Of a stretch of DNA of 34,486 nucleotides, positions 984-28,838 are shown one piece after another. A program made the position numbers and the translations under genes. The DNA is from an uncultured Xenococcaceae cyanobacterium (GTDB lineage: Bacteria; Cyanobacteriota; Cyanobacteriia; Cyanobacteriales; Xenococcaceae), in the NCBI GenBank assembly GCA_937996665.1, contig CALKUU010000349.1, positions 1 to 34,486 on the forward strand. The letters are read 5' to 3'. The notes under the pieces are model-generated. The model did not search any database, was not told the DNA's origin, and worked only from the letters and a program-made list of their open reading frames with translations. The stretch's first letter is position 1. Each line of letters opens with the position of its first letter.

Positions 984-2183
984 ATGACGACTGTCAAAAA
1001 TGGAATTAGTAATACTCGTAAACGAATTCCACAATTCAACGCTAGTAAGCAACTCGAGTTTTTTGAGTCTTTAAAAAACACTAAATTTAGTGGTCAATTG
1101 GCGATCTCGGACTCTAACGATAATTCTTGGATGTTTTATTTATATCTGGGAAGGATTGTTTATGCTACTGGAGGAATTCACCCGACTAGGCGTTGGCGAA
1201 GGAACTTAGTTTCCTATTGTCCTCAAAGGTTAGCCCATTTTGATGAGATTCAAGAAGAATTATTGAAAGTTCCTGAAGAAGCTTGTCGTATTTCTTGGGA
1301 ATACAAACTTTTATCCTTATGGATTGATCAAAATAAGATTACTAGAGAGCAAGCTGCAAGAGTCATTAAAGCTCATGTCATAGAGATTTTATTTGACGTG
1401 ACTCAGACTATGGAAGTGTATTGTGAGACGATCAAAAATAATTTAATTTCTACTCGTTTAATTTTGATTGAGCCAGAGCCAGTGATAAATGAGGCTCATA
1501 AACTTTGGCAGTCATGGCAATCTGCAAAGGTTGCAGATCGCTCACCTGACAGTGCCCCAATTATTCGTCAACCAGAAGCTTTAAGGCAAAGAACTTCTCC
1601 TCAGGTATTTCAGAATTTGAGTCAACTACTTGATGGCAAACAGTCTTTACGAGATCTCAGCATTAGAATGAGACGTGATTTTGTCACTGTTACTCGATCT
1701 TTACTACCTTATATTCAGTTAGGTCTAGTTCAGTTGATTAAGCTTGATGATATTAGTTCTCCTGTTTCCCCTATTATTGCTGATCGATTTTCCAAAAATG
1801 ACAATTCGAATAGAGTTTTAATTGCTTGTATCGATGATAGTCCTGCAATTTGTCAGACTATGGAGCAAATTGTCATCTCGGCTGGATACAAGTTTATTAG
1901 TGAAATGGATGGTTTAAGAGCGATCGCTGTGTTGTTGAGTCGGAAGCCAGATCTGATTTTTTTAGATCTAATTATGCCTAACACTAACGGCTACGAAATT
2001 TGTACCCAGCTTCGTAAACTTTCATTTTTTAAAAATACTCCTATTGTGATCGTGACTGGCAATGACGGTATTGTTGACCGAGTTCGTGCCAAAATGGCTG
2101 GTTCTACGGATTTTATTAGTAAGCCAATCAATAGTGAAATTGTCATTAATACTGTTAATAAATATTTGAAGAAAAAAGCATGA
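984..2183 (+). CDS. PatA-type response regulator (PATAN/DUF4388 + receiver), PixG/PilG-like
   Basis: A 399-residue protein. The N-terminal part (about 1-120) is a PATAN/DUF4388 effector domain, with SGQLAI followed by WMFYLYLGRIVYATGG, the typical turn in this family. A helical middle region follows. The C-terminal part (about 275-399) is a CheY-like receiver with the acidic pair in ACIDDSP, phospho-acceptor Asp328 in IFLDLIMP, and the conserved lysine in ISKPI. In cyanobacteria, PatA-type proteins head the Tax/Pix, Pil and Hmp loci and link phosphotransfer to type IV pilus motility, probably through PATAN interactions with the pilus motor. It is first in a seven- or eight-gene same-strand operon. 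Family is confident. Whether it is the ortholog of Synechocystis PixG or PilG is not resolved. Confidence 0.9.
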   Translation: MTTVKNGISNTRKRIPQFNASKQLEFFESLKNTKFSGQLAISDSNDNSWMFYLYLGRIVYATGGIHPTRRWRRNLVSYCPQRLAHFDEIQEELLKVPEEACRISWEYKLLSLWIDQNKITREQAARVIKAHVIEILFDVTQTMEVYCETIKNNLISTRLILIEPEPVINEAHKLWQSWQSAKVADRSPDSAPIIRQPEALRQRTSPQVFQNLSQLLDGKQSLRDLSIRMRRDFVTVTRSLLPYIQLGLVQLIKLDDISSPVSPIIADRFSKNDNSNRVLIACIDDSPAICQTMEQIVISAGYKFISEMDGLRAIAVLLSRKPDLIFLDLIMPNTNGYEICTQLRKLSFFKNTPIVIVTGNDGIVDRVRAKMAGSTDFISKPINSEIVINTVNKYLKKKA

Positions 2184-2328
2184 TTTTTAACTGACAATAT
2201 TTTCGGTTGTATGACAGGTATCTTGATTTGTTAGTTACCAAGAACCAAAAGGGAACTATAAGTATTAATGAAATGAATCGAAACTTATAGAGTCCAACAA
2301 AAAAAATTTCTTATAGGTTGAAAAAATT

Positions 2329-2700
2329 ATGATGGGAAATGCCCTGATTGTTGATGATTCTGCGACGGAAAGAGCGATATTAGCTAGTTGTTTAAAAGAA
2401 CTTGGTATTAATGTTTCTTTAGCAAAAAGTGGAGAAGAAGCCTTAGAAAAAATTGCGATAGGACTACCTGACTTAATTGTTTTAGATATTGTTTTGCCTG
2501 GTCGAAGCGGATTTGAAATATGCCGAGAACTTAAAGGAGCAGAAAATACTCATAATATTCCAATTATTCTTTGCTCTACTAAAGATACTGATATGGATAA
2601 ATTTTGGGGAAAGAAACAAGGTGCTGATGCTTATTTACCCAAACCAATTAATCAAGAAGAATTGGTTGAAAAGGTTAAGCAACTCATGAAAAGTATCTAG
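2329..2700 (+). CDS. CheY-like single-domain response regulator (PixH/PilH-like)
   Basis: A 123-residue stand-alone receiver. Residues visible are the acidic pocket in LIVDDSATERA, phospho-acceptor Asp53 in LIVLDIVLPGRSG, a Ser/Thr switch in IILCSTKD and the lysine in YLPKPI. There is no output domain, so it acts by docking after phosphorylation by the operon's CheA. The start is one of two adjacent ATGs (MMGN). It lies 145 bp after the PatA-type gene and 59 bp before the CheW gene on the same strand, the second position in Pix/Pil-type loci. The 145-bp gap is the second largest in the operon and could allow an internal promoter or processing. Confidence 0.92.
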   Translation: MMGNALIVDDSATERAILASCLKELGINVSLAKSGEEALEKIAIGLPDLIVLDIVLPGRSGFEICRELKGAENTHNIPIILCSTKDTDMDKFWGKKQGADAYLPKPINQEELVEKVKQLMKSI

Positions 2701-2759
2701 CTATATTTATATTTTATAGCTATTTGACAATATATAAAAAATATTTTTAATTTTATTCT

Positions 2760-3290
2760 ATGTCGTCAGAATCCAATAATTCTGCTTTAGCAATAAAGCA
2801 TAAAAACAAACAAAAAAAACAATTTTTACGCTTTTGTTTGGAGCCAGAAACTACAATTATGTTGCCAATTGATCAGGTAACTGAAGTATTAAAAATTCCT
2901 CTCAAAAAAATTGTACCAATCTCACAAATGTCGGTCTGGACAATGGGGGTTTATAATTGGCGCGGCGAAGTATTGTGGATGGTAGATTTGGGACATTTAC
3001 TTGGCTTGGGTACTTGGCAAGAGCAACAAATTAATCATGCTGACGCCACTGCTATTATTTTATCTTCTCCTTCTGGTTCAAAGGCTCAGGGGTTGCAAAG
3101 AAAAAGTATCGGACTAATTATTAACAAAGTGGACGATATTGAGTGGTGCGATCCCGAAGAAATAAAATTTGATCTTCCTTCTACTATTACTCCAACCTTG
3201 AAATCTTTCTTAAATGGATATTGGTTAAAACCTGAACAAGGAATTATTTTTATTGTAGATGGACAAGCGATTTTTCGCTCTATCTCTTAA
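2760..3290 (+). CDS. CheW-like scaffold protein (PixI/PilI-like)
   Basis: A 176-residue protein with one CheW domain from about residue 20 to the end. The signature IVPISQMSVWTMGVYNWRGE (49-68), followed by WMVDLGHLLGLG, is the hallmark of cyanobacterial PixI/PilI/HmpC proteins. CheW couples receptor signalling tips to the CheA kinase in the membrane array. The N-terminal 20 residues are polar and lysine-rich. It precedes the first receptor gene by about 130 bp. A second, more divergent CheW gene lies at the operon end (12555-13070), so two adaptors may serve the two receptors. Confidence 0.92.
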   Translation: MSSESNNSALAIKHKNKQKKQFLRFCLEPETTIMLPIDQVTEVLKIPLKKIVPISQMSVWTMGVYNWRGEVLWMVDLGHLLGLGTWQEQQINHADATAIILSSPSGSKAQGLQRKSIGLIINKVDDIEWCDPEEIKFDLPSTITPTLKSFLNGYWLKPEQGIIFIVDGQAIFRSIS

Positions 3291-3423
3291 TCCTAATTAG
3301 GTTTTCTTCTAGATATTAAAATCAATATTTTAAATTTTATTTTTTTGCTATTTGAATAATATTTATTCGATTTCTCCTGTATAGAAAAGTATCAACCTAT
3401 TGTTTCAGATAAGTGACATTACT

Positions 3424-6180
3424 ATGCTTAATCAACAGTCTTCTCAAGTAAAAAAACTTTATCGTATTCCTCTCAATTCTAAAACTAATTTCATTTCTTG
3501 GTTTAGTGTCGGAGCCTTAGCTTTTGTTGTTTGTTCTGGCGGTTTAATTCTGCGTGAGAGTTTACAAAGGCAGTTAGACGAGCAGGTAAGTTCTCAACTC
3601 TCAGTTGCTGATATTCAATACAATATCAAAATTGACCAAATGGGTTTTGGATTTAGAGGTCAGTCTGATAATGCTGCGATTATTGCTGCGACTCGTGATC
3701 ATAAGCGAGGAAATAAGATATCTGCTGATTTGAGAAAACAAATAAAAAGCATATTGGGCAATGAACTGACAGCCCGCGAAATTGAGTATGCGACTTTGGT
3801 CGGTAATGACCGCAGAATTATTGTCAATGCTAATCAAGAACGTGTCGGTCAACTTTTTGACCCCAATGGTTTGGTGACTCAGGCATTTAAGACAGGATTA
3901 CAAGTTAAGAGTAGTGAAATAATTAATTGGTCAGAGATTTCCCAGGAAAATCCACCCTTAATCGAAAAATTGCAGCAGGGAGATAACTTAATTCGCTATA
4001 CGGTTACTCCTGTTAAGGATAATCAAGGTAAGGAAATTATTGGGGCTTTAATTTCTGGAGATGTCGTTAATGAAAAGTCTTCTATCGTCGTTGATTCTGT
4101 TCGAGCCTTCAATGATAAAGATGGTTATAGTGCCGTTTATTTGAAGGGTTCTACTGGTGAATTCAAATTGGCAACTTCTTTTCTCGAAACCGAAGAAGAG
4201 GGGATTGGGACACAAATCTCTTTGTCGGATCAAAAGATTTTAGATAAGGCGATCGCCGATGTTGATGGAATTGCCATATCTCAAACTGAAGTCAATGGGA
4301 ACAAGTATATTCTTGCTGCTAAAGCGATTACTAATAGTAAGAATGAAGCTATTGGGGTGATTATGTATGGCACACCTGCTAGCTCGTCTATTTTGAATAA
4401 AAGTATTTTAGCTCAAGTAATCTTGGCTTTAATTGCTATGGTCGTCACCTTATGGCTAACTCGTTTGTTAACCAGGGCAATTTCTGAGCCAATTCAAGAG
4501 TTGCAACAAATTACTCAAGAATTTTCTGAAGGTACTATTTCAGCTAGAGCTAAGGTTTATTCCCACGATGAAGTCGGTTTATTGGCTTCGACTTTTAATG
4601 GTTTGGCTGATTCGATTGAAATGAGTAAAGAGCAATTAAACAATGAAGTAAAACGCTCTCATATTCTCAAGGAAATTGCTCTAAACGCTGGGGAATCTAG
4701 TGATAAAGAATCAATCTTTCAGATTATGGTTGATAGTGCGAGAAAAGCCGTTGATTGCGATCGCGTTATCTACTGTAAATTTGATGATGGTCTAGACGGT
4801 ACCGTTATTGCTGAGTCTCTTGATGAGCACTTAAATTCTGCTTTAGGTTCGGAAATACAGCAGTCTTATCTAATTGAGAATTCACCTGAAGATTATCAAC
4901 AAGAAATGATTAAGGTGGTCTCTGATCTTGAATCTTCAGGCTTAAGCGATGCAGAAATTGGCTACTTAGGGTCACTTTCTATTCAATCTTATGTAGTTAT
5001 TCCCGTTTTTGAAGGAGACGAATTATCTGGGTTGCTAATTGTTTGTCAATGCAATCAAGCAAGAACTTGGGACGAGAATGATACTAGTATCCTAGAACAA
5101 ATAGCTCAGCAATCTGGTACTTCACTAGAGAAATTTGATTTGTTGCAGAAACAAAAATTGGTACAAATCAAGGAGCGAAAAGCAAGAGAGAATTTACAGC
5201 AGCGAGCCTTAGAATTGTTGATGGAAGTTGATCCTGTTAGTCGTGGCGATTTGACCATTCGTGCTCAGGTTAAAGAGGATGAAATTGGTACTATTGCCGA
5301 TTCTTATAACGCTACTATCGAAAGTCTGCGGAAGTTGGTTAATCAAGTAAAAACTTCAGCTAGTTTAGTTTCTACTACTACCAGTGAAAAAGAGACCTCA
5401 ATTCAAGAGCTTTCTCAAGGTGCTTCTGAGCAAACCAAGGAAATTGGAGCGGCAATTGAAAGAATTAATTTAATGGCAACTTCGATTAAAGCTGTAGCCG
5501 CCAATGCAGAGGAAGCTGAAGATGCAGTTCGCCAAGCCACCGAAACAGTTAAGGCTGGGGATCAGGCGATGGATCGTACGGTAGAAGGTTTTAAAGCAAT
5601 TCGAGAGACCGTAGCCGAAACCGCTAAAAAGGTTAAACGACTTGGTGAGTCATCTCAAAAAATATCTAAGGTAGTTAACTTAATTAGTAGCTTTGCCGAT
5701 CAGACTAATCTGCTTGCCTTAAATGCTTCGATTGAGGCTGCTCACGCAGGAGAAGAAGGACGAGGTTTTGCTGTTGTTGCCGATGAAGTCCGTTCTCTGG
5801 CAAGACAATCGGCAGAAGCTACTGCTGATATTGAATCCTTAGTAGCAGAAATTCAGTCGGAGACAAATGAAGTGGTTGCGGCTATGGAATCAGGTACAGA
5901 ACAAGTTGTAGCCGGGACAAAACTAGTTGATGAAACTCGTTCTTCTTTGACTCAGATTGCCGATGTGAGTGCCCAAATTGATGCCTTGGTTAGGGCGATC
6001 GCTGAAGCCACTGTAGAACAATCTCAAGATTCAGAAATTGTGAGTAAAACCATGACTCAAGTTGCTAGTATTTCTCACAAAACGGCAACGGAGGCGGAGG
6101 AAGTTTCTGTTTCTTTCAAAGAATTATTAATGGTTGCTCAAATCCTTCAAGAAAGTGTTGCCAAGTTTAAGGTGAACTAG
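3424..6180 (+). CDS. Methyl-accepting chemotaxis protein 1: Cache-like sensor, HAMP, degenerate GAF, HAMP, MCP domain (PixJ/PilJ-like)
   Basis: Residue numbers here count from an in-frame TTG at 3400. The first ATG is at 3424 and is my chosen start, giving 918 residues; neither start has a clear ribosome site. Order: TM1 (34-52), a periplasmic region of about 280 residues resembling Cache-type ligand sensors, TM2 (336-357), HAMP (358-410), GAF (420-580), a second HAMP-like segment with [21 protein letters not shown], and the MCP coiled coil (660-926). The hairpin tip [20 protein letters not shown] is intact. In bilin-binding cyanobacteriochrome GAFs a Cys-His pair lies in LSxCHxxYL; here the aligned residues are Ala518-Glu519 (LSDAEIGYL). 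No other bilin cysteine is apparent, so this GAF probably binds no chromophore. It is 52 bp upstream of a paralog. Confidence 0.93.
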
Positions 6181-6232
6181 TCTTGATTGTTTCTCTTTTT
6201 GTTATAGCTATCATCCTTAATTTCGCAAACTC

Positions 6233-8290
6233 ATGGCTAAAAAATTTCCTCAACAAAGCTTACAAAATCAGGATTTGGCAGCTTCTCTTAATCAATCTCA
6301 ATTCTTAATTAGTCAATCTAAAGCAAATTGGTGGCGAAAAATTGGTATTCGTTGGCAAACTATTATTTTGGCGATCGCTATGGGAACTCTTCCCGTAGCT
6401 ACATTAGGTTTACTTTCCTATCGTGTTGCCAACAAATCAGTTACAGATCAAGTCGTCACTATTAAAGAGACTTTAGCTATCGAGCCGCAGAATAATCAAA
6501 AGCTAGTTGTTGCACCCCAAAGACAACTTGCTCTTACCTATTTGTTGGTAACGTCACTAACTTCTGTTTTGGTTGGAGTGATCGCTTATTTTCTGGCTAA
6601 GTTGATGACTCGCCCAATTTTGAAAAATGCTACGACCTTAGCTGAAATTGCTTCGGGAAACTTGAAAGCTCGTGTTGCAATTGAAGGGCATGATGAGCTG
6701 GCTCAACTAGCTAACAATGTTAATCAGGTAGCCGAGCAACTAGAAAAATTGTCTGTGAGTCAAGATCTATTGGCAAAACAGGCTCAGCTTTTACAGCAGA
6801 CTGTTCTCGCTTTAACCGAAATAGATGATCCAGAAGCGATTTGGTTGGTTGTTCTAGATAAGATCAGAATTGGTTTAAAAGTTGCTGGGGTTAGTTATTT
6901 TAGCTATGAACTGAATCAAATTACGGAAGAGTCATTAGATCCTGGTGCAACTTCCGTGCTAGGAGAAGAAATTTTTAATCGTAATGTTCTTGGCGCTTTT
7001 AGACAATCAGGGAATGAAGCTATTTGTGCCTTTAATGACTTTGCCGATGTTGATTTATCTTCTCCTCAATTAGCTAAGTTTGATGCTAATTCGATTGAAT
7101 CCTGTGCGATTGTCGAAATTGAGCAGCAAGAAACTCCTCGTGGTTTACTCATCGCTCATAACAAACTATCTTCTGAGCCTTGGTCAGATTCTCAACTTGA
7201 TTTTCTGCGGCAAATGGCTACGCAAATTAACTTTACTTTGAACCGACTAGATCTTTCTCGACAACAAAAGAACATTCAACTCAAGGAAAAACAAGATAAG
7301 GAGCAACTGCAAAGAAGCGCATTAGAGTTATTACAGCAAGTTGAGCAACTTAACCAAGGAGATTTAACGATTCGAGCTGTTGTTACCGAAGATGAAATTG
7401 GCACAATCGCCGATTCTTATAATTCGACAATCTACAATCTTCAAAAGCTAGTCACACAGGTTAAAAATGTTGCTTATGAGGTGGAACAAAACGTTGGCGA
7501 TAATCAAGAAATTATTAATAAATTAGCCACTGAAGAAATTCAGCAAGCTCAATCGATCAATCAGACGATGGAACAAATTGAGAGCATGAATGCTTCTATT
7601 CATGAGGTTTCTCAAAGTGCATCCCAAGCAGAACAAATTGTTAAACAAGCTAATTTAACAATACTTGATGGTGATCACAAGATGAATCAAGCTGTGACTC
7701 AGATAAGTGCTTTGCAGAATACTGTTGAACAGACCGAGCAAAAAGTTAAGTTACTGGGTGAATCTTCTCAGGAGATTTCTCAAGTTGTTAATTCGATTGG
7801 TCGTTTTGCCGCTCAAACTCATTTGCTGGCGCTAAAAGCTTCCATCGAAGCTGCTCGGGCTGGAGATCAGGGTAAGGGTTTTGCCACCATTGCTGATGAA
7901 GTTCGATCTCTAGCTACTCAATCGGCAACTGCAACTGCTGATATTGAAAACCTTGTTGCCAGGATTCAACTAGAGACCAATGAGGTTGTTGCGGCTATGG
8001 CAGAGGGAACTAAGCAAGTTAGTAGTGGTACTCAATTAGTTCAGCAAACTCGTCAGGGTCTTGATCAAGTGACCCAAGCCAGCAATGAGATTAGTCTTTT
8101 AATTGAGGCGATCGCTAGTTCTGCACAGGGACAATCAGATATTTCTGATCAAGTAAGCCAAAATATGTCCCAGGTAGTAGCTAAAGCCAAAGTTAATTCT
8201 GAGTCGGCAACTCAGATATCGAGTAAAATCGAAAATCTTTTGGCAGTAGCCAATAAGTTACAAACTAATGTTGATCAATTTAAAACCTAG
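6233..8290 (+). CDS. Methyl-accepting chemotaxis protein 2 with minimal periplasmic loop and atypical signalling tip (PixJ2-like)
   Basis: A 685-residue receptor. TM1 is about 42-66 and TM2 about 99-122, with only about 32 residues between them, so no periplasmic ligand domain. HAMP (123-175), a GAF-like segment (about 187-345), a second HAMP-like segment with [21 protein letters not shown] (376-396), and the MCP coiled coil follow. The last two modules are close paralogs of the upstream receptor, so the pair arose by duplication with sensor divergence. The tip reads QTHLLALKASIEAARAGDQG: His530 and Lys535 replace the two Asn of the near-invariant QTNxLALNA core that contacts CheW/CheA and neighbouring receptors. 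It may therefore be a modified or auxiliary array component. Only 18 bp separate it from the CheA gene. Confidence 0.92.
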   Translation: MAKKFPQQSLQNQDLAASLNQSQFLISQSKANWWRKIGIRWQTIILAIAMGTLPVATLGLLSYRVANKSVTDQVVTIKETLAIEPQNNQKLVVAPQRQLALTYLLVTSLTSVLVGVIAYFLAKLMTRPILKNATTLAEIASGNLKARVAIEGHDELAQLANNVNQVAEQLEKLSVSQDLLAKQAQLLQQTVLALTEIDDPEAIWLVVLDKIRIGLKVAGVSYFSYELNQITEESLDPGATSVLGEEIFNRNVLGAFRQSGNEAICAFNDFADVDLSSPQLAKFDANSIESCAIVEIEQQETPRGLLIAHNKLSSEPWSDSQLDFLRQMATQINFTLNRLDLSRQQKNIQLKEKQDKEQLQRSALELLQQVEQLNQGDLTIRAVVTEDEIGTIADSYNSTIYNLQKLVTQVKNVAYEVEQNVGDNQEIINKLATEEIQQAQSINQTMEQIESMNASIHEVSQSASQAEQIVKQANLTILDGDHKMNQAVTQISALQNTVEQTEQKVKLLGESSQEISQVVNSIGRFAAQTHLLALKASIEAARAGDQGKGFATIADEVRSLATQSATATADIENLVARIQLETNEVVAAMAEGTKQVSSGTQLVQQTRQGLDQVTQASNEISLLIEAIASSAQGQSDISDQVSQNMSQVVAKAKVNSESATQISSKIENLLAVANKLQTNVDQFKT

Positions 8291-8308
8291 AATCGGTTTA
8301 GCCTAATC

Positions 8309-11300
8309 ATGTCTCTCAATCCCGAAATTCGCGATCAAGCCTACCAATTTTTTATTGAAGAAGCAGGAGAACTTCTACAAGTCCTCGAGGATGGTTTAGT
8401 AACTCTCAAGGAGGATCATAGTACTTCCAAAGTTCACGAATTAATGCGGGCAGCTCACTCTCTTAAAGGTGGAGCTGCTAGTGTTGAATTGGACACGATT
8501 AAATTAATTGCTCATCGTCTTGAGGATTTTTTTAAGGCTCTTTACAGCGATCAGGTTAATTTTGATAATCAGCTAGAAAGCTTATTTCTGAAAGCTTTTG
8601 ATGGTCTTAGAGATCCCCTTGTTGAACAGATGGAGCAGGGTGAGTTTGATGAGGAAGAAGCCTTACTCAATGTCGCACCTGTTTTCGATGAATTGGAGGA
8701 AATTTTAGGAGAGGCGCTTAAGGAAGCTGATAGTTATATTCCTAGCGCTACTGATTTGGGTGTCGATATTGTTGAATCTATTTTTGATATTGATGTTCAA
8801 CAATCATTAGAACACCTCGTTTCTGTAACTAATAATCCGTCACTTTTTGATATCGCTCAAGAACTACAAGCGCAGCTTGAAGTATTGAGTGGATTTGCTG
8901 AGCTTTTTAATTTACCTGGATTTGGCGAGATTATTGAGCTGGGAACTATTGCTGTAAGTACTGCACCGCAACGGGCATTAGAAATTACTCAAATTGTGAT
9001 CGATGATTGTCAGCAATCTAGAGAACTTGTTTTGGCTGGCGATCGCGCTCAGGGAGGGTCACCTTCTCCAGCTTTGATCTTAATTTCTAGAGGTGAGTCT
9101 ACCGAATCTGAGTTAAATTCTACCGAATTAACTGCAGATGAATTAACAAATGCAGACGAAAATATCTTGGATGTTTTTGGTTCAATCGAGGTTGCTGATT
9201 CCAATACTGTTGATATTGCTGAGAGTTCAGAGCCGGCTGAGGCAATCGAGGATTTATTTGGTAACGATTTCACTGCAAATACTGTCTCTGGTAAAGAGAA
9301 AATAGATGACATGACTTTGAGTAGGATCTTTTCTCATGAAGGTCTTTTTGGCGAGTCTGAGTCAGCTAATTCAGCAAGTATGGATTCTGAAGAAGAAGCC
9401 TATTTTTCTGAGGATGGGGTGAATTGGCAAGATGATGAGGCGATGGTTTGGTCTGAAGCTGAAGAGAATGTCGAAAATTTGTCTGAAGATCAAAGTGTGT
9501 TCTCTAATTTTGCTGAAGATGAAAAAGATGCTGTTATTGATTGGGGTGACATTTCTTCAGAAGATCCTAACTCCCAGTCTAATGAAGCTGGAGATGTAGC
9601 AATCCTAGATAATTTGGGTTTATCTGAAAATATTTTTGAAGATATTCCTGATCATGATTCTGTGGATGATTCTGAAGCTAAAGTTCTGGCTTTAGGTGCC
9701 AAAATCCTAGATGGTAAAGTTGCTCCTTCTTCCTCAGAATTTTCTACAGACTTTACAGATAATCTCGACGAAGTTATCTCTTTTGAGAAGGAGCTTGTCA
9801 ATACAGAACTAGAAGCTGATAAAGAAGAAGATCCAATAATTAGTGAAGATATCCAGCAATCTCAAGTTAAATTAGAAGTAGAAGAATCATCTACATTTAC
9901 CGCTCCAGAAAATCTTGAAAATGCTCTCAATTCAATTCCCGAAATTTTTGAGCAACTACCTTCTGCTGATGCTGATCAGATTTTAAAAAGTGGGTTGTCA
10001 AAATCTGTAGAGGCTTTAGCTCAAAAAGCTAATCGTTCTAAATCTAAAGCGAAATCGGCTAAAAAAGCTCCTTTGGGTAATCAATTAAGTGTCCGTGTCG
10101 ATTTAGATCGTCTGGAACGGATGAATAATTTGATTGGTGAGTTGGTGATCAATCGTAATAGTTTGGCTTTGCAAAACGAACAGTTACAACTCAATGTCAA
10201 AAATCTATCCAAGAAATTTATTCGTTTTCGAACTGTAACGAGTAAACTGCGGGAGATTTCTGATCGGATGTTGGTAGAGTCGGAATCTTCTATCGATAAG
10301 TCTTTTTCTCCAGAAAATACAGAGTTTGATTCTTTGGAGATGGATAGTTATAACCTTCTACAATTGGCATTGCAAGATATTCTTGAGGAAATTGCTCAGT
10401 TAGAAGAAGGTGCTGACGATATTTTCTTGTTTGCTAAGCAGTCTAGTCAGACTGTCGCTAACCAGAGCCAAATGCTTGGTCAAATGAGAGATGAGTTAAT
10501 GTGGGCGAGAATGTTGCCTTTGGAGCAAATTCTGAAAAGATTTCCTCGTACTTTAAAAAATCTTTCTAATGAACATAACAAGCCTGTTGAGCTTGATTTG
10601 ATAGGTACTAGTGTTTTAGTTGACAAGGCGGTTTTAGAAAAGCTGTATGATCCATTGTTGCATCTGCTCCGCAACGGTTTTGATCATGGAATAGAACCAT
10701 CCTCAATTAGAAAAGCACAGGGCAAGCCTGAAGTTGGTAAAATTTCAATTCATGCTTACTATCAAGGAAATCAAACTGTTATTGAAATTAGTGATGATGG
10801 CAAGGGTTTAGATACCAGCAAAATTATCCAGAAAGCTGTAGAAAAAGGCTTGGTATCGGCTGATGATATCGCTAGTTTCTCTCAGGAACAAGTGTTTGAT
10901 CTAATCTTTGAACCAGGATTTTCTACCTCAGAGAAGGTGAGTGAGATTTCTGGTCGAGGTATCGGAATGAATGTGGTGAAAGAGCAAATTGAGTTCTTAA
11001 AAGGCAGAATTTCGGTGGCATCGACTCCAGGTCAAGGAAGTGTTTTTACTCTGTCTTTACCTTTGACTTTGACCATTGCCAAATTATTAGTTGTTTCTTT
11101 GGGCGAAACGGCTTTTGCTCTTCCTTCTGATGGTATTGAGGAAATAATTGTTCCGAAATCCGATCAGATTAAATTGGCAGGCGGACAGAAATATTTGCAT
11201 TGGAATGGAAATCTGGTTTCTATTTATAATTTAAAAGAAATCTTAGAATACAATTGCACAATTATTCCTATCGATAACAATAGTAAGGTGTTTGCTTCTG

Positions 11301-12526
11301 TGAATGCTCCTCAAGATTGGGCTTTTCCATTGTTGCTCTTGAGAAGAGGTAAAAAGTTTTTTGCTTTGGAAATTAATCGTCTTATTACAGAGCAGGAATT
11401 GGTTGTTAAACCATTTGGTAAGACCTTGACTCCTCCGAGCTACACCTATGGTTGCACAATTCTTGGTGACGGGACTCTGATTCCTGTAATTAATGGTGTC
11501 TCACTAATTCAGGATTTCTTAGGCGATTCTGATTCTGTGGCTAGTTCTGGGCGATCGCAGCCACAGTTAAATCTTGCTGTTGAAACATTAGGATCAGATT
11601 TGGCTGCTCCTCTCGATGTCAATCAGTCAAAGGTTGACGAAACCGTTGCAGACCAAAAAACTTTTAAGTCAGATAACTATCAACAAGTTATTGATAAAAG
11701 CACTGCCTCAATATCTGTAAAAACAATAATGGTTGTTGATGATTCAACCGCTTTAAGGCGAACAATGGCTTTGAGTTTGGAAAGGAAGGGTTATCGAATT
11801 ATTCAAGCTAAAGATGGTCGAGATGCTCTGGAGCAACTTCGACAAAACTCCGGGGTGGATTTAATTGTTTGTGACGTAGAAATGCCCCATATGAATGGAT
11901 TTGAATTTTTGGGAGTGAGAAGGAGAGATTCTGCACTTAAAGAAATTCCTGTAATTATGCTTACTTCTCGAAGTGGTATTAAGCATCGTAATTTAGCTGG
12001 TCAACTTGGCGCAGATGGTTATTTTACTAAGCCTTATGTTGAGGTTGATTTCTTGAAAGAACTGAGCAAAATTTTGAATGGTAAAGTTGCTTCTCAGCCA
12101 CCAAAAAGATCTCCGTCTCAAGCACGAAAACTGGATCATAAAGATATTATTCTGATCGTTGATGATTCTTCTGCTTTGCGTAGAACAATGGCTTTGAGTT
12201 TAGAGCGCAAAGGATACCATGTTCTAGAAGCTAGAGATGGAGAAGAAGGTTTGGAGCAAATGAATCAAAACCCTAATATCGGGTTGGTAATTTGCGATAT
12301 TGAAATGCCCAAAATGAATGGTTTCGATTTGCTCCGCGCTCGTCAAAAAAATTCCCACCTTCAAAAAATTCCCGTCGCTATGCTTACTTCTCGTAATAGC
12401 GAAAAACATCAAAATGTAGCTTTTGAGTTGGGAGCGAATGCTTATTTCACAAAACCTTATGTCGAGGATCCTTTTATTGCTGCAATTAAAAAATTAATTA
12501 AAAAAGATACGGTTAATGTGTTTTAG
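8309..12526 (+). CDS. Hybrid CheA histidine kinase with two tandem C-terminal receiver domains (PixL/PilL-like)
   Basis: 1405 residues. HPt domain first (about 5-110) with phospho-accepting His50 in RAAHSLKGGAAS. A very acidic, low-complexity linker (about 260-590) contains spaced VFG/LFG motifs. The dimerisation helices begin with LERMNNLIGELVINRNSL. The ATPase domain shows HLLRNGFDHGIEP (N box), DDGKGLD (G1) and GRGIGMNVVKEQIEFLKG (G2). A CheW-like regulatory domain follows (about 965-1110). Two receivers end the protein, with acceptor aspartates 1189 and 1330, exactly 141 codons apart, and a 17-bp identical DNA repeat (11762-11778 and 12185-12201). It phosphorylates the CheY- and PatA-type regulators of the operon; the attached receivers probably act as phosphate sinks. 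Only one HPt is obvious. Confidence 0.95.
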   Translation: MSLNPEIRDQAYQFFIEEAGELLQVLEDGLVTLKEDHSTSKVHELMRAAHSLKGGAASVELDTIKLIAHRLEDFFKALYSDQVNFDNQLESLFLKAFDGLRDPLVEQMEQGEFDEEEALLNVAPVFDELEEILGEALKEADSYIPSATDLGVDIVESIFDIDVQQSLEHLVSVTNNPSLFDIAQELQAQLEVLSGFAELFNLPGFGEIIELGTIAVSTAPQRALEITQIVIDDCQQSRELVLAGDRAQGGSPSPALILISRGESTESELNSTELTADELTNADENILDVFGSIEVADSNTVDIAESSEPAEAIEDLFGNDFTANTVSGKEKIDDMTLSRIFSHEGLFGESESANSASMDSEEEAYFSEDGVNWQDDEAMVWSEAEENVENLSEDQSVFSNFAEDEKDAVIDWGDISSEDPNSQSNEAGDVAILDNLGLSENIFEDIPDHDSVDDSEAKVLALGAKILDGKVAPSSSEFSTDFTDNLDEVISFEKELVNTELEADKEEDPIISEDIQQSQVKLEVEESSTFTAPENLENALNSIPEIFEQLPSADADQILKSGLSKSVEALAQKANRSKSKAKSAKKAPLGNQLSVRVDLDRLERMNNLIGELVINRNSLALQNEQLQLNVKNLSKKFIRFRTVTSKLREISDRMLVESESSIDKSFSPENTEFDSLEMDSYNLLQLALQDILEEIAQLEEGADDIFLFAKQSSQTVANQSQMLGQMRDELMWARMLPLEQILKRFPRTLKNLSNEHNKPVELDLIGTSVLVDKAVLEKLYDPLLHLLRNGFDHGIEPSSIRKAQGKPEVGKISIHAYYQGNQTVIEISDDGKGLDTSKIIQKAVEKGLVSADDIASFSQEQVFDLIFEPGFSTSEKVSEISGRGIGMNVVKEQIEFLKGRISVASTPGQGSVFTLSLPLTLTIAKLLVVSLGETAFALPSDGIEEIIVPKSDQIKLAGGQKYLHWNGNLVSIYNLKEILEYNCTIIPIDNNSKVFASVNAPQDWAFPLLLLRRGKKFFALEINRLITEQELVVKPFGKTLTPPSYTYGCTILGDGTLIPVINGVSLIQDFLGDSDSVASSGRSQPQLNLAVETLGSDLAAPLDVNQSKVDETVADQKTFKSDNYQQVIDKSTASISVKTIMVVDDSTALRRTMALSLERKGYRIIQAKDGRDALEQLRQNSGVDLIVCDVEMPHMNGFEFLGVRRRDSALKEIPVIMLTSRSGIKHRNLAGQLGADGYFTKPYVEVDFLKELSKILNGKVASQPPKRSPSQARKLDHKDIILIVDDSSALRRTMALSLERKGYHVLEARDGEEGLEQMNQNPNIGLVICDIEMPKMNGFDLLRARQKNSHLQKIPVAMLTSRNSEKHQNVAFELGANAYFTKPYVEDPFIAAIKKLIKKDTVNVF

Positions 12527-25940: not shown

Positions 25941-27350
25941 ATGAAGCACCAGATCCGTAAATTATATGAGAGCTTTGCTGATAATTTAGTCGAGTTCAGT
26001 CGTCAACATGGAGCTAGATCCTGGTTGGTCTTTCTTTTTGTCTTTGCACTTATTGTGGCGATGTCCTCGTCTGGATTATCGACAGAAATGACTCTTGTTC
26101 ACGAGATTTCGTCTACTCCAGAAGCATTTACTGAGATTAATGTCTCCTCTGCTCCAGTTTCCCCCCAGTCAGAACCTGAACTCAGCCAGGACAGATTGCC
26201 AAAGCCCACTTCCCCTTATTTGAAAACTGTTCAACAATGTGACCGAAATCAGGAGACAAGGGGCGTTTGGTTGACGAATGTTGATAGTGATGTTTTGTTT
26301 GCGAAGAAAAATACGCGTCAAGCGATCGCCAATCTAGCAAGGCTTAATTTCAATACTCTTTACCCTGCTGTTTGGAATTGGGGTCATACTCTCTATCCTT
26401 CTCCTGTGGCTGAGGCTGTTACTGGGATCAAAATAGATCCTCATCCTGGGTTTAAAAATCGTGATGTTCTTCAAGAAATTGTCGAGGAAGGTCATGCTGC
26501 TCAAATGAGTGTAATCCCCTGGTTTGAGTTTGGGTTTATGGCTCCGGCAGATTCTACGTTGGCAACACTTCATCCTGAATGGTTGGTCAAAAAAAGTAAT
26601 GGCAGCACAATCTGGTGGGAAGGAAAGACTCACAAGCGAGTCTGGCTCAACCCTCTTCACCCAGAAGTTCAAAAATTTATTACCGATTTAGTGGTGGAAT
26701 TAGTCGCTAACTATGATGTCGACGGCATTCAAGTAGACGATCATTTTGGCTACCCTGCCGAATTTGGTTACGACGATTATACTGTTGCTTTATATCAACA
26801 AGAACATCAAGGAAAACAACCACCGAGTGATGCCAAAGACCCCGATTGGATTAGGTGGCGTGCTGATAAAATCACTGCTTATATGAAGACTCTATTTACT
26901 GCAATTAAAGCTTCTAATCCTGATGCCATCGTGTCTGTTTCTCCAAATCCCCAAAAATTTTCTCTCAATTCTTTTTTGCTTGATTGGAATACTTGGCGGA
27001 AAAAAGGCTTGATTGAAGAATTAATAGTCCAAGTATATCGACCAAATCAGACTAGTTTTATTCATGAATTATCTCAGCCAGAAATGATTGCAGCCCAAAA
27101 ACACATTCCGGTTAGTATTGGCATTCTTTCTGGATTAAAAGGGCGTCCTGTTTTGTCTGGACAGCTTAAACGACAAGTTCAAATTGCTCGCGATCGCAAA
27201 TTTGCAGGAGTATCTTTTTTCTTTTATGAAAGTCTCTGGAATCTTGCTCGCGAGTCTCCCGAATCCAGAAAAGAAACTCTGTCTGGTCTTTTTAAACAAC
27301 CTGTTGGTCGGCAGCAACAATCTTGCCGATTCATCTCTCATCATCAATGA
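25941..27350 (+). CDS. GHL10/glycosyl hydrolase family 10-like protein, membrane-anchored
   Basis: 469 residues. A hydrophobic segment (about 28-47) acts as a signal peptide or anchor, then a Ser/Pro-rich linker. From about 100 the GHL10 (PF02638-type) TIM-barrel begins with RGVWLTNVDSDVLF, then FNTLYPAVWNWGHTLYPS, VIPWFEFGFMAP, VWLNPLHPEVQKFITDLVVE, and VDGIQVDDHFGYP, whose Asp pair is in the position of the family's catalytic acids. It ends with FAGVSFFFYESLW. Role: hydrolysis of an envelope or exopolysaccharide glycan; substrate unknown. The stop is 27 bp before the cNMP-methyltransferase gene, likely the same transcript. Confidence 0.88.
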   Translation: MKHQIRKLYESFADNLVEFSRQHGARSWLVFLFVFALIVAMSSSGLSTEMTLVHEISSTPEAFTEINVSSAPVSPQSEPELSQDRLPKPTSPYLKTVQQCDRNQETRGVWLTNVDSDVLFAKKNTRQAIANLARLNFNTLYPAVWNWGHTLYPSPVAEAVTGIKIDPHPGFKNRDVLQEIVEEGHAAQMSVIPWFEFGFMAPADSTLATLHPEWLVKKSNGSTIWWEGKTHKRVWLNPLHPEVQKFITDLVVELVANYDVDGIQVDDHFGYPAEFGYDDYTVALYQQEHQGKQPPSDAKDPDWIRWRADKITAYMKTLFTAIKASNPDAIVSVSPNPQKFSLNSFLLDWNTWRKKGLIEELIVQVYRPNQTSFIHELSQPEMIAAQKHIPVSIGILSGLKGRPVLSGQLKRQVQIARDRKFAGVSFFFYESLWNLARESPESRKETLSGLFKQPVGRQQQSCRFISHHQ

Positions 27351-27377: not shown

Positions 27378-28838
27378 ATGGAAAGTAAATTAAAATTTCT
27401 CACCGCTGAAGATTACAACCTTTTAAGGGAGAAAGGGAAGATTGCTGTTTTTCATAAAAATGAAATTCTGATCAAGGAAGGCTCTTCTCCGCAATCGATT
27501 TATATTTTGCAGAAAGGAATGGTTCGCCTCGAAAAAGCAACCATTGGCTCAGGAGTGGCGATCGCAATCTTGGTTCCTGGGGATGTTTTTGGCGAGATGT
27601 CTTTTCTCGAAGAAGAGATTAAAAGTGCCAAGGTTGTTGCCCAAGATCGTGCGGAAGTAATGATTTTGGAGCAAAATCAACTCTACTCATTATTAGTTTC
27701 TGTTCCTGGTTTATCGGCTCGTTTCTACCAATCAATTGCCTACAATCTTTCTTGGCGTTTGCGCGAGACAAACTCTTTAATTGCTTCTTTAACTAGAATA
27801 ATTAGTTCTTCCCCTCACCCCGAACCAAGAAGAACTAGTGATGAGGGTCAAGAGCGAATTCCTCCTGAACTGATTGGCGAAATAGAATTGTTTAAGCATG
27901 ATCTTTTGGAAGTCGAAAAGAATTTACGAGCTAAGGTCATTACCGAAGAAGTTGCCCAGGAAACAGTTAATCGAGTCTGTGGAATGGTGGCAAATTCTCT
28001 GCGTGAGCAAATTATTCATCATCAAGATATTGAAAAAGCGATCGGCACATACATTTTTCGAGAGTCGTTTCCGTTTTTTATGCTCAGTAGCTTTATTGAT
28101 TTAACTTTTCGTCAACCTCGTAATTGTGGCAATGATTCTTATGTTGTCGAAGTTTTATCTCAAAATGAACCAGAAGGGGATGGTCATTTAGGGGTTTATA
28201 TAGATCATTGGATTCGTTCGATTCCTACTTGTTTGGCACTCAAAAATCGTGGGGGGATTATCACTGCTACTTTGAAAGAGTTAGCTAGTAACTGGAATGG
28301 GGAAACACCGATGCCAGTTACTAGTCTAGCTAGCGGTGCGGCGACAGAGATTTTGGATTTATTTTTGAATGCTCAACCGCCCAATGTTCATGTGAGTTGT
28401 ATTGATATCAACCATAAACATCTGCACTATGCAGCTAATTTATCTCGTAAACTCGGTTTTCAAGAATATTTAACCTGTATTCAAGATAATATTTTTCTAA
28501 TTGCTCAAGGTCATAGCTGTGTTCACTTGTCTCCCCAGCAAATGATTTACAGCGTTACCCTAGGTAATTATTTGAGCGATCGCGAATTTATTGCTGTTCT
28601 AGATTGGATTTACGATCACTTATTGCCCAACGGAACAGTTATTCTGGGTAATTTTCATGCCTCGAATCCAGATCGACTGCTGCTAGAACATATTCTAGAG
28701 TGGCATTTAATTTATCGCTCGGCAGAACAGTTAGAAAAACTTTTTGGTCGCTCAAAGTTTCGATCTTTACCTGTCACAATTGAGTCGGATGAGTTTGGGG
28801 TCGAGCTGTTTGCAGTCTGCACCAAAACCTGGGCTTAA
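27378..28838 (+). CDS. Cyclic-nucleotide-binding domain fused to a PhcB-like SAM methyltransferase
   Basis: 486 residues. Residues 8-125 form a Crp-like cNMP-binding domain, with the cassette FGEMSFLEEEIKSAKVVA (71-88). Glu73 is kept, but the canonical Arg of RSA is Lys82, so cAMP affinity is doubtful. Residues 143-163 are a Pro/Ser/Arg stretch whose DNA contains nested inverted repeats. A central helical region follows. The C-terminal 200 residues are a class I methyltransferase: VTSLASGAATEILDLF (motif I), CIDINHKHLHYA (acidic ribose ligand), then NYLSDREF and LLPNGTVILGN. The region resembles the 3-hydroxypalmitate methyl ester (PhcB-type) synthase group. There is no DNA-binding HTH. It is probably an operon with the upstream GHL10 gene. 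Confidence 0.8.
   Translation: MESKLKFLTAEDYNLLREKGKIAVFHKNEILIKEGSSPQSIYILQKGMVRLEKATIGSGVAIAILVPGDVFGEMSFLEEEIKSAKVVAQDRAEVMILEQNQLYSLLVSVPGLSARFYQSIAYNLSWRLRETNSLIASLTRIISSSPHPEPRRTSDEGQERIPPELIGEIELFKHDLLEVEKNLRAKVITEEVAQETVNRVCGMVANSLREQIIHHQDIEKAIGTYIFRESFPFFMLSSFIDLTFRQPRNCGNDSYVVEVLSQNEPEGDGHLGVYIDHWIRSIPTCLALKNRGGIITATLKELASNWNGETPMPVTSLASGAATEILDLFLNAQPPNVHVSCIDINHKHLHYAANLSRKLGFQEYLTCIQDNIFLIAQGHSCVHLSPQQMIYSVTLGNYLSDREFIAVLDWIYDHLLPNGTVILGNFHASNPDRLLLEHILEWHLIYRSAEQLEKLFGRSKFRSLPVTIESDEFGVELFAVCTKTWA

Follow-up and report, generated by a model that had tools for sequence, protein, structure and literature searches.

The gene at positions 27378-28838 of the window encodes a protein that joins an N-terminal Crp-type cyclic nucleotide-binding domain (CNBD) to a C-terminal methyltransferase of the PhcB superfamily. 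The window is the whole stretch of DNA analysed here, 34,486 nucleotides of contig CALKUU010000349.1 (assembly GCA_937996665.1) from an uncultured Xenococcaceae cyanobacterium. This domain combination is real and is found in several phyla. Our preferred reading, to which we assign a probability of about 0.5, is that the protein is a SAM-dependent methyltransferase gated by its Crp-type domain, which would no longer be a canonical cAMP receptor.

Domain organization and predicted fold

The coding sequence is on the + strand, as are all features of the protein given below. It starts with ATG and specifies 486 residues, followed by a stop codon. The CNBD (residues 24-106, positions 27447-27695) matches Pfam family PF00027 above its cut-off (E 2.4e-17). 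The class I SAM-dependent methyltransferase domain (residues 221-486, positions 28038-28835) was assigned from homology and from the AlphaFold2 model, which shows the sheet of a class I methyltransferase at residues 312-482. The model also predicts a long C-helix for the CNBD (residues 112-142, positions 27711-27803) and a set of helices linking this domain to the methyltransferase (residues 163-234, positions 27864-28079). It was computed from 33 aligned sequences (alignment A5) and has a mean pLDDT of 84.3 and a pTM of 0.65, with pLDDT values below 50 for residues 137-151. The PF00027 match and the modelled methyltransferase fold bear out the fusion claimed in the original prediction. Its claim that a DNA-binding domain is lacking also holds, as the Pfam listing for the protein contains no helix-turn-helix (HTH) or other DNA-binding family; the C-terminal HTH of Crp/Fnr factors is absent.

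None of the Pfam methyltransferase models exceeds its cut-off on the window protein. Methyltransf_20 (PF12147) is not listed at E 0.1 for this protein, L002 or L027, and no match to it is listed for L044, L084 and L124. The cut-off of this family is passed by L003, L047, L058, L061, L063, L064 and L069, and failed by L062.

Structures in the Protein Data Bank (PDB) were ranked by a second-look alignment of 999 chains, in which rows no more than 1 Z apart are tied. The best match to residues 218-485 is 3ocj (Z 19.6, rmsd 3.3, 243 aligned residues), and that to the CNBD is Xanthomonas CLP (3iwz; residues 8-140, Z 18.1, rmsd 2.2, 133 aligned residues). The fold match to CRP covers residues 9-141. 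Due to the ties, neither 3ocj nor 3iwz names a function; the matches to the C-terminal domain support a class I methyltransferase fold. The 3ocj entry, a putative exported protein of Bordetella parapertussis, is also matched by profile A6 (E 8.4e-5), which has no other PDB chain below 0.001. The aligned part spans residues 29-302 in a chain of roughly 300 residues, so that a CNBD would not fit, unlike in the window protein.

Phosphate-binding cassette and methyltransferase active site

The phosphate-binding cassette of the CNBD, FGEMSFLEEEIKSAK, is located at residues 71-85 (positions 27588-27632). The Arg residue that contacts the phosphate of cAMP (equivalent to Arg209) is replaced by Lys82 (positions 27621-27623), and the alignment confirms this predicted position. 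The Arg is absent from all 21 family members, with Thr in 16 of them and Lys, Pro, His, Ala and Ser in one each. A fixed role for Lys82 is ruled out, as the window protein is the only member with Lys. The Gly residue that co-evolves with this Arg (equivalent to Gly169, in the β2-β3 loop) is also missing from all 21, being replaced by Ser (15), Cys (four) or Pro (two, including the window protein). The cassette Glu is retained in all of them. Among the other CNBD-methyltransferases (L003 and L061-L079), the Arg is present in four of 20 (L063, L065, L067 and L073) and the Gly in none of 20, with one gap. The co-evolution of the cassette Arg and Gly is described in PMC2246266, where it is also stated that non-canonical cassettes can occur with ligands of a different kind, such as heme or a chlorophenolic acid, and that the Arg to Lys change in PKA causes a nearly ten-fold loss of cAMP affinity.

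The window genome has 14 PF00027 places, which gave eight distinct aligned CNBDs besides that of the window protein; four places (L177, L182, L183 and L184) have no row in the alignment, and L176 and L181 both correspond to a single CNBD in a protein that contains two. One of the eight, L171, has both the Arg and the Gly, and L172 has an aligned Arg without the Gly. The genome also has one match to the cyclase family PF00211 and, together with the L171 cassette, this indicates that a canonical cAMP route may exist in the cell. By its sequence, the CNBD of the methyltransferase is unlike this canonical-type CNBD. Its ligand is most likely something other than cAMP bound in the canonical way, because both the Arg and its co-evolving Gly are lost throughout the family and L171 retains the two. 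The control by a nucleotide that had been predicted is weakened by these losses, but the CNBD-cyclase fusions in three Myxococcota-side genomes (see below) keep a nucleotide link in play.

In the methyltransferase domain, SAM motif I, VTSLASGAATEI, was placed at residues 314-325 (positions 28317-28352) from its position in the fold. Asp343 (positions 28404-28406), at the end of the second strand, is presumably the acid that binds the ribose of SAM, following the general pattern of class I methyltransferases. The residues of the expected SAM site are present, with Gly320 and Glu324 of motif I, Asp343 and other core residues being invariant in 33 aligned proteins. Lys173 in the linker helices is nearly invariant across 33 aligned proteins.

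Other conserved motifs have changed. The GYAGD motif of the relatives is NCGND here (residues 249-253, positions 28122-28136), with Asp253 kept. In the four rows of the window family in alignment A6, GYAG is lost, the Asp of GLxDY is Asn, and the second Arg of NRR is Gly, while all three features are kept in each of the 11 other rows. By eye, the four-domain proteins L219 and L220 (see below) also deviate at these places. The altered motifs suggest a changed substrate or chemistry in the window family and are the main reason to doubt a plain PhcB-like activity. The best plasmid match of the C-terminal part is from Enterobacter ludwigii (L047:5598-8735; E 2e-25, 29.8%), where a methyltransferase of the superfamily ends a type I polyketide synthase, after a carrier domain. 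This match may be a faint hint of acyl-type substrates.

Distribution, selection and gene neighborhood

The C-terminal part of the window protein has matches at E <= 0.001 in 21 of the 27 genomes of its family, its own included, and in 19 of the 22 that are at least 90% complete. The 20 other family members are 54.8-80.7% identical to the window protein over the full length, except for L033, where the alignment begins at residue 7, and L043, which is masked beyond residue 349. For all 22 recovered open reading frames (ORFs), those of the 21 family members plus L003 as a more distant one, the alignment extends over the CNBD (query start 1, 4 or 7). A single-protein search with the C-terminal part finds three of the 292 genomes in the phylum samples. 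Profile A6 finds 19 of 386 phylum genomes, with strong matches in two genomes of the window family and four of another family (f25), and E values of 1e-20 to 6e-7 for the rest. Relatives of the window protein were not found in viral contigs.

In addition, 84,980 species were scanned with two conserved patterns, which miss relatives that lack them, and the best 80 of 150 relatives were kept. Among these 80, the nearest named relative is from Hyella patelloides LEGE 07179 (83% in the methyltransferase), and a CNBD is recognized by a local HMM in 29 of the 32 top loci (L048-L057 and L061-L079). The three loci that lack it (L058-L060) are all from Mycolicibacterium, and the weakest CNBD matches are in L074 (3.7e-5) and in L073, which is cut at its 5' end. 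The records of the CNBD-methyltransferases are labeled Cyanobacteriota, Acidobacteriota, Planctomycetota, Myxococcota, Thermodesulfobacteriota, Nitrospirota and others, and are mostly metagenome-assembled genomes. Two nearly identical loci, L070 and L071, are labeled Rhodobacteraceae and Planctomycetota, so that at least one of these bins is probably mislabeled. A description of CNBD-methyltransferase or cyanobacterial PhcB combinations was not found in the open-licence literature, a weak absence. The main text of PMC2246266 does not contain the word methyltransferase, and its Table 1 covers 30 families without describing such an enzyme for any of them.

The window gene is under purifying selection. 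For L056 and L057, the only unsaturated pair of the four computed, dN is 0.011 and dS is 0.131 over 489 codons, with similar constraint across the CNBD, the linker and the methyltransferase; dS is roughly 1.8 or more for the other three pairs. In all seven pairs with the window protein, conservation is higher in the methyltransferase (64-83%) than in the CNBD (47-79%).

A glycoside hydrolase-like protein of the GHL10 type (PF02638, E 4.4e-100; positions 25941-27350, + strand) is encoded directly upstream, 27 bp before the ATG. It is found at this place in all ten family loci (in pieces in L053), and a GNAT gene on the opposite strand accompanies seven of the ten. The TetR and M16 genes downstream of the window gene have matches in none of the ten, with L050 and L054 ending 0.2 and 1.1 kb after the gene; this count ignores ORFs of L049, L052 and L056 that match other ORFs of the window. 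Relatives of GHL10 (59-66%) are also present in all three near-complete (90-100%) family genomes that have no match to the methyltransferase (G297, G298 and G300), and a methyltransferase remnant was not found in the 2.2-2.3 kb after GHL10 in G298 and G300. The glycan hydrolase proposed as the partner gene is therefore a conserved neighbor, but an obligate partnership is weakened by its persistence in these three genomes. The pair represents conserved synteny, perhaps a transcription unit, which is no proof of a shared function.

A link to lipases was considered and rejected: a CNBD-patatin gene is located downstream in L071, but the intervening ORF has no family match and looks spurious. Besides L071, L078 and L086, patatin relatives were not found beside the searched loci, the other listed matches being the CNBD-methyltransferases themselves. 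Elsewhere in the window, positions 984-12526 contain a chemotaxis-type cluster, with a DUF4388-response regulator protein, a response regulator, CheW, an MCP (HAMP and GAF domains) and a CheA-like hybrid kinase of 1405 residues; the domain scan of this cluster excludes the ORF at 6233-8290.

Relation to PhcB-type systems and proposed control of the methyltransferase

The window protein has remote homology to a phc-like protein on a plasmid of Paraburkholderia graminis (L044; tblastn 2e-4, 24.7%). The operon on this plasmid encodes the methyltransferase, an ATP-binding protein and two response regulators, in an order that resembles phcB, phcS, phcR and phcQ as described for Ralstonia solanacearum (PMC8578825). 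The locus is called PhcB type here because of this order and a matching Arg22; the label rests on these two features, R. solanacearum PhcB itself being outside the comparison. Among the best 80 of 150 relatives, 46 loci (L080, L082 and L084-L127) are on the PhcB side, and the broken or cut L081 and L083 are outside both the PhcB-side and the CNBD-side counts. An N-terminal domain of about 100 residues is found in 44 of the 46, the two misses (L107 and L110) being cut at the 5' end. A PhcS-like kinase follows the methyltransferase in 45, usually with response regulators, and L123 reaches the contig end. Outside the betaproteobacteria, such phcBS(RQ)-like sets carry the labels Verrucomicrobiota, Acidobacteriota, Planctomycetota, Myxococcota and Candidatus Obscuribacter.

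The methyltransferase of the window protein is 23-29% identical to those of the PhcB-side loci. A quick tree of 50 domains separates the PhcB side, by a branch with support of 100, from a side that includes the window family, which is itself grouped with support of 100 on a long stem branch (1.18). This tree omits L045, L046, L083, L099, L107 and L070 (a near-copy of L071) from the 56 domains of the first tree, and many PhcB-side loci are in neither tree. The AU test rejects neither of two groupings: joining the window family to the PhcB side gives a p-AU of 0.56, with a likelihood slightly above that of the free tree, and joining it to the other CNBD proteins gives 0.39. We favor the placement on the CNBD side because of the higher identity (29-37% versus 23-29%) and the shared architecture. 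Judged on these sequence comparisons, the window protein is a remote homolog of the PhcB-type enzymes and not an ortholog of PhcB, the synthase of a 3-hydroxy fatty acid methyl ester. The predicted likeness to PhcB thus holds at the level of the superfamily, but orthology is not supported, as PhcB types have a different N-terminal domain and an adjacent PhcS-like kinase.

The N-terminal domain of the PhcB type (L044:4359-4680; L084:5386-5700) matches Pfam families unconvincingly, yet it holds Arg22. A by-eye likeness to PilZ is supported neither by Pfam (16 members) nor by a profile search of the PDB, and the domain is left unnamed. In PMC6989110, the R22C substitution of PhcB is described as affecting signal synthesis without inactivating the enzyme. 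It is outside the methyltransferase domain, at a residue stated there to be conserved in Ralstonia, Cupriavidus and Paraburkholderia homologs. This residue coincides with Arg22 of L044 and L084, and Arg is found in 14 of 16 aligned N-terminal domains (Asn in L124, Ser in L116). As R22C falls in the N-terminal domain, these published observations suggest that the N-terminal modules of the PhcB superfamily tune catalysis.

A PhcS-type sensor HMM was built from the N-terminal part of 27 neighboring kinases. It also matches the N terminus of L061 (Polyangia), the kinase of L073 and, in three Desulfobacteraceae loci, the product of the gene that follows the CNBD-methyltransferase gene. The remaining 28 of the 33 sources, including the window and its ten family loci (L048-L057), have no match. 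With the profile, the sensor was found in none of the 27 genomes of the window family, in 13 of 194 phylum genomes (weak, 2.4e-11 to 7e-6), and in one of eight hand-picked genomes holding CNBD-side relatives, a set that includes the CNBD-less L058 and excludes L063, L065, L067 and L073, where the sensor is next door. The absence from all 27 counts against a Phc-type quorum circuit. A methyl-ester signal circuit is therefore unsupported in the window organism, and the protein probably has no place in a Phc-type loop there. In L063, L065 and L067, the sensor that follows the CNBD-methyltransferase carries an HD domain (PAS, HD and an HD-GYP-like motif are shown for L065), which suggests a link to c-di-GMP in Desulfobacteraceae.

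L061:3862-6801 is a single ORF for a PhcS-type membrane sensor, a class III cyclase (PF00211), a CNBD and a methyltransferase. Four-domain proteins of 967-979 residues are found in three Myxococcota-side genomes (L061, L219:352-3252, and L220 on the - strand). Their CNBDs lack the Arg, with Ala in its place (by alignment for L061, by eye for L219 and L220). The complete sequences from genomes G475 and G630 repeat the four-domain order, with the cyclase recognized by its likeness to that of L061, so the L061 fusion is no assembly accident. In the sample of the L061 phylum, the methyltransferase is found at E <= 1e-30 in 85 of 329 genomes. Among the 30 loci listed from this sample, the CNBD is present in five and the cyclase as well in three (one being the L061 gene), and a sensor ORF is located inside the short flanks of 21.

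In the preferred reading, the CNBD of the window protein would probably bind a small molecule other than cAMP or cGMP in their canonical binding mode. By analogy with Bd1971 (see below), it would probably regulate catalysis, with the long C-helix and the linker helices relaying ligand binding to the methyltransferase. The substrate might, more tentatively, be a carboxylic acid of acyl or polyketide-like type, or a similar compound. This would parallel PhcB, but the two substrates probably differ because the window family has altered otherwise conserved motifs. On the other hand, the fusion of an Arg-less CNBD to a cyclase would be unexpected for a domain that never encounters a cyclic nucleotide, and the Arg is kept in a fifth (4/20) of the more distant CNBD-methyltransferases. 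The Arg-less CNBD could still bind a cyclic nucleotide made by the genome's own cyclase, giving a methyltransferase switched by cAMP or cGMP, as the three Myxococcota-side ORFs, the universal cassette Glu and the PF00211 match of the window genome would allow. We consider such a switch unlikely, since the Arg and its co-evolving Gly are lost in every family member and the CNBDs fused to a cyclase have no Arg either.

The motif losses could also mean an altered enzyme or a non-catalytic SAM binder, a degenerate domain with a sensing or scaffolding role under the CNBD. The losses are specific to the family among the compared rows, its stem branch is long, and L219 and L220 deviate as well. The invariant Gly320, Glu324, Asp343 and other core residues, and a methyltransferase that outconserves the CNBD in every pair, make this account improbable. 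A true PhcB-like synthase, producing a fatty-acid methyl ester that is also sensed by the cells, would be consistent with the homology to the methyltransferase of phcBSRQ-like operons and with the PhcS-type sensor domains that accompany many relatives elsewhere. The missing sensor in the window family, its scarcity in the phylum and in the chosen CNBD-side genomes, the low identity to PhcB-type loci and the changed motifs render it quite improbable.

A broader and rather unlikely scenario is a second multi-phylum branch of Phc-like signaling, in which the methyltransferase that makes the signal is under the intracellular control of a Crp-type domain with a new ligand specificity. Its fullest form would be the single polypeptide of Myxococcota, with the PhcS-type receptor, the cyclase, the Crp-type domain and the methyltransferase, and the Pleurocapsales family of the window would be an offshoot without the sensor and with a re-tuned active site. 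If the preferred reading is true, a Crp-type domain would control a methyltransferase directly, bypassing transcription, and would recognize a so far uncharacterized ligand within a very large domain superfamily. The comparison also suggests a role that can be tested for the so far unexplained N-terminal part of PhcB, the site of R22C, namely that of a regulatory module swapped for a CNBD in other lineages. With the receptor-cyclase-CNBD-methyltransferase protein, one chain would suffice to test how a diffusible signal is coupled to a second messenger.

The closest relatives outside the window family, the picocyanobacterial and other-phylum CNBD-methyltransferases (L003 and L061-L079), have the same domain order and an Arg-less cassette in 16 of 20. 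In contrast to the window family, those in alignment A6 keep GYAG, GLxDY and RR, and their methyltransferases are 29-37% identical to that of the window protein. The PhcB type shares with the window protein a homologous C-terminal methyltransferase, an N-terminal module of about 100 residues and an intervening stretch. Its module is the unnamed domain with Arg22, however, and the window protein has the CNBD in that place. The PhcB type also has a PhcS-like kinase alongside, whereas the window gene has GHL10 upstream and TetR on the other strand downstream. For the gating of an enzyme by a CNBD, the parallel is Bd1971 of Bdellovibrio, which was also found here by sequence as a CNBD match. In the description of this protein (PMC6717892), the CNBD binds cAMP and cGMP and acts on an EAL phosphodiesterase domain through a linker helix. 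In comparison, the CNBD of the window protein lacks the Arg, and its output domain is a methyltransferase.
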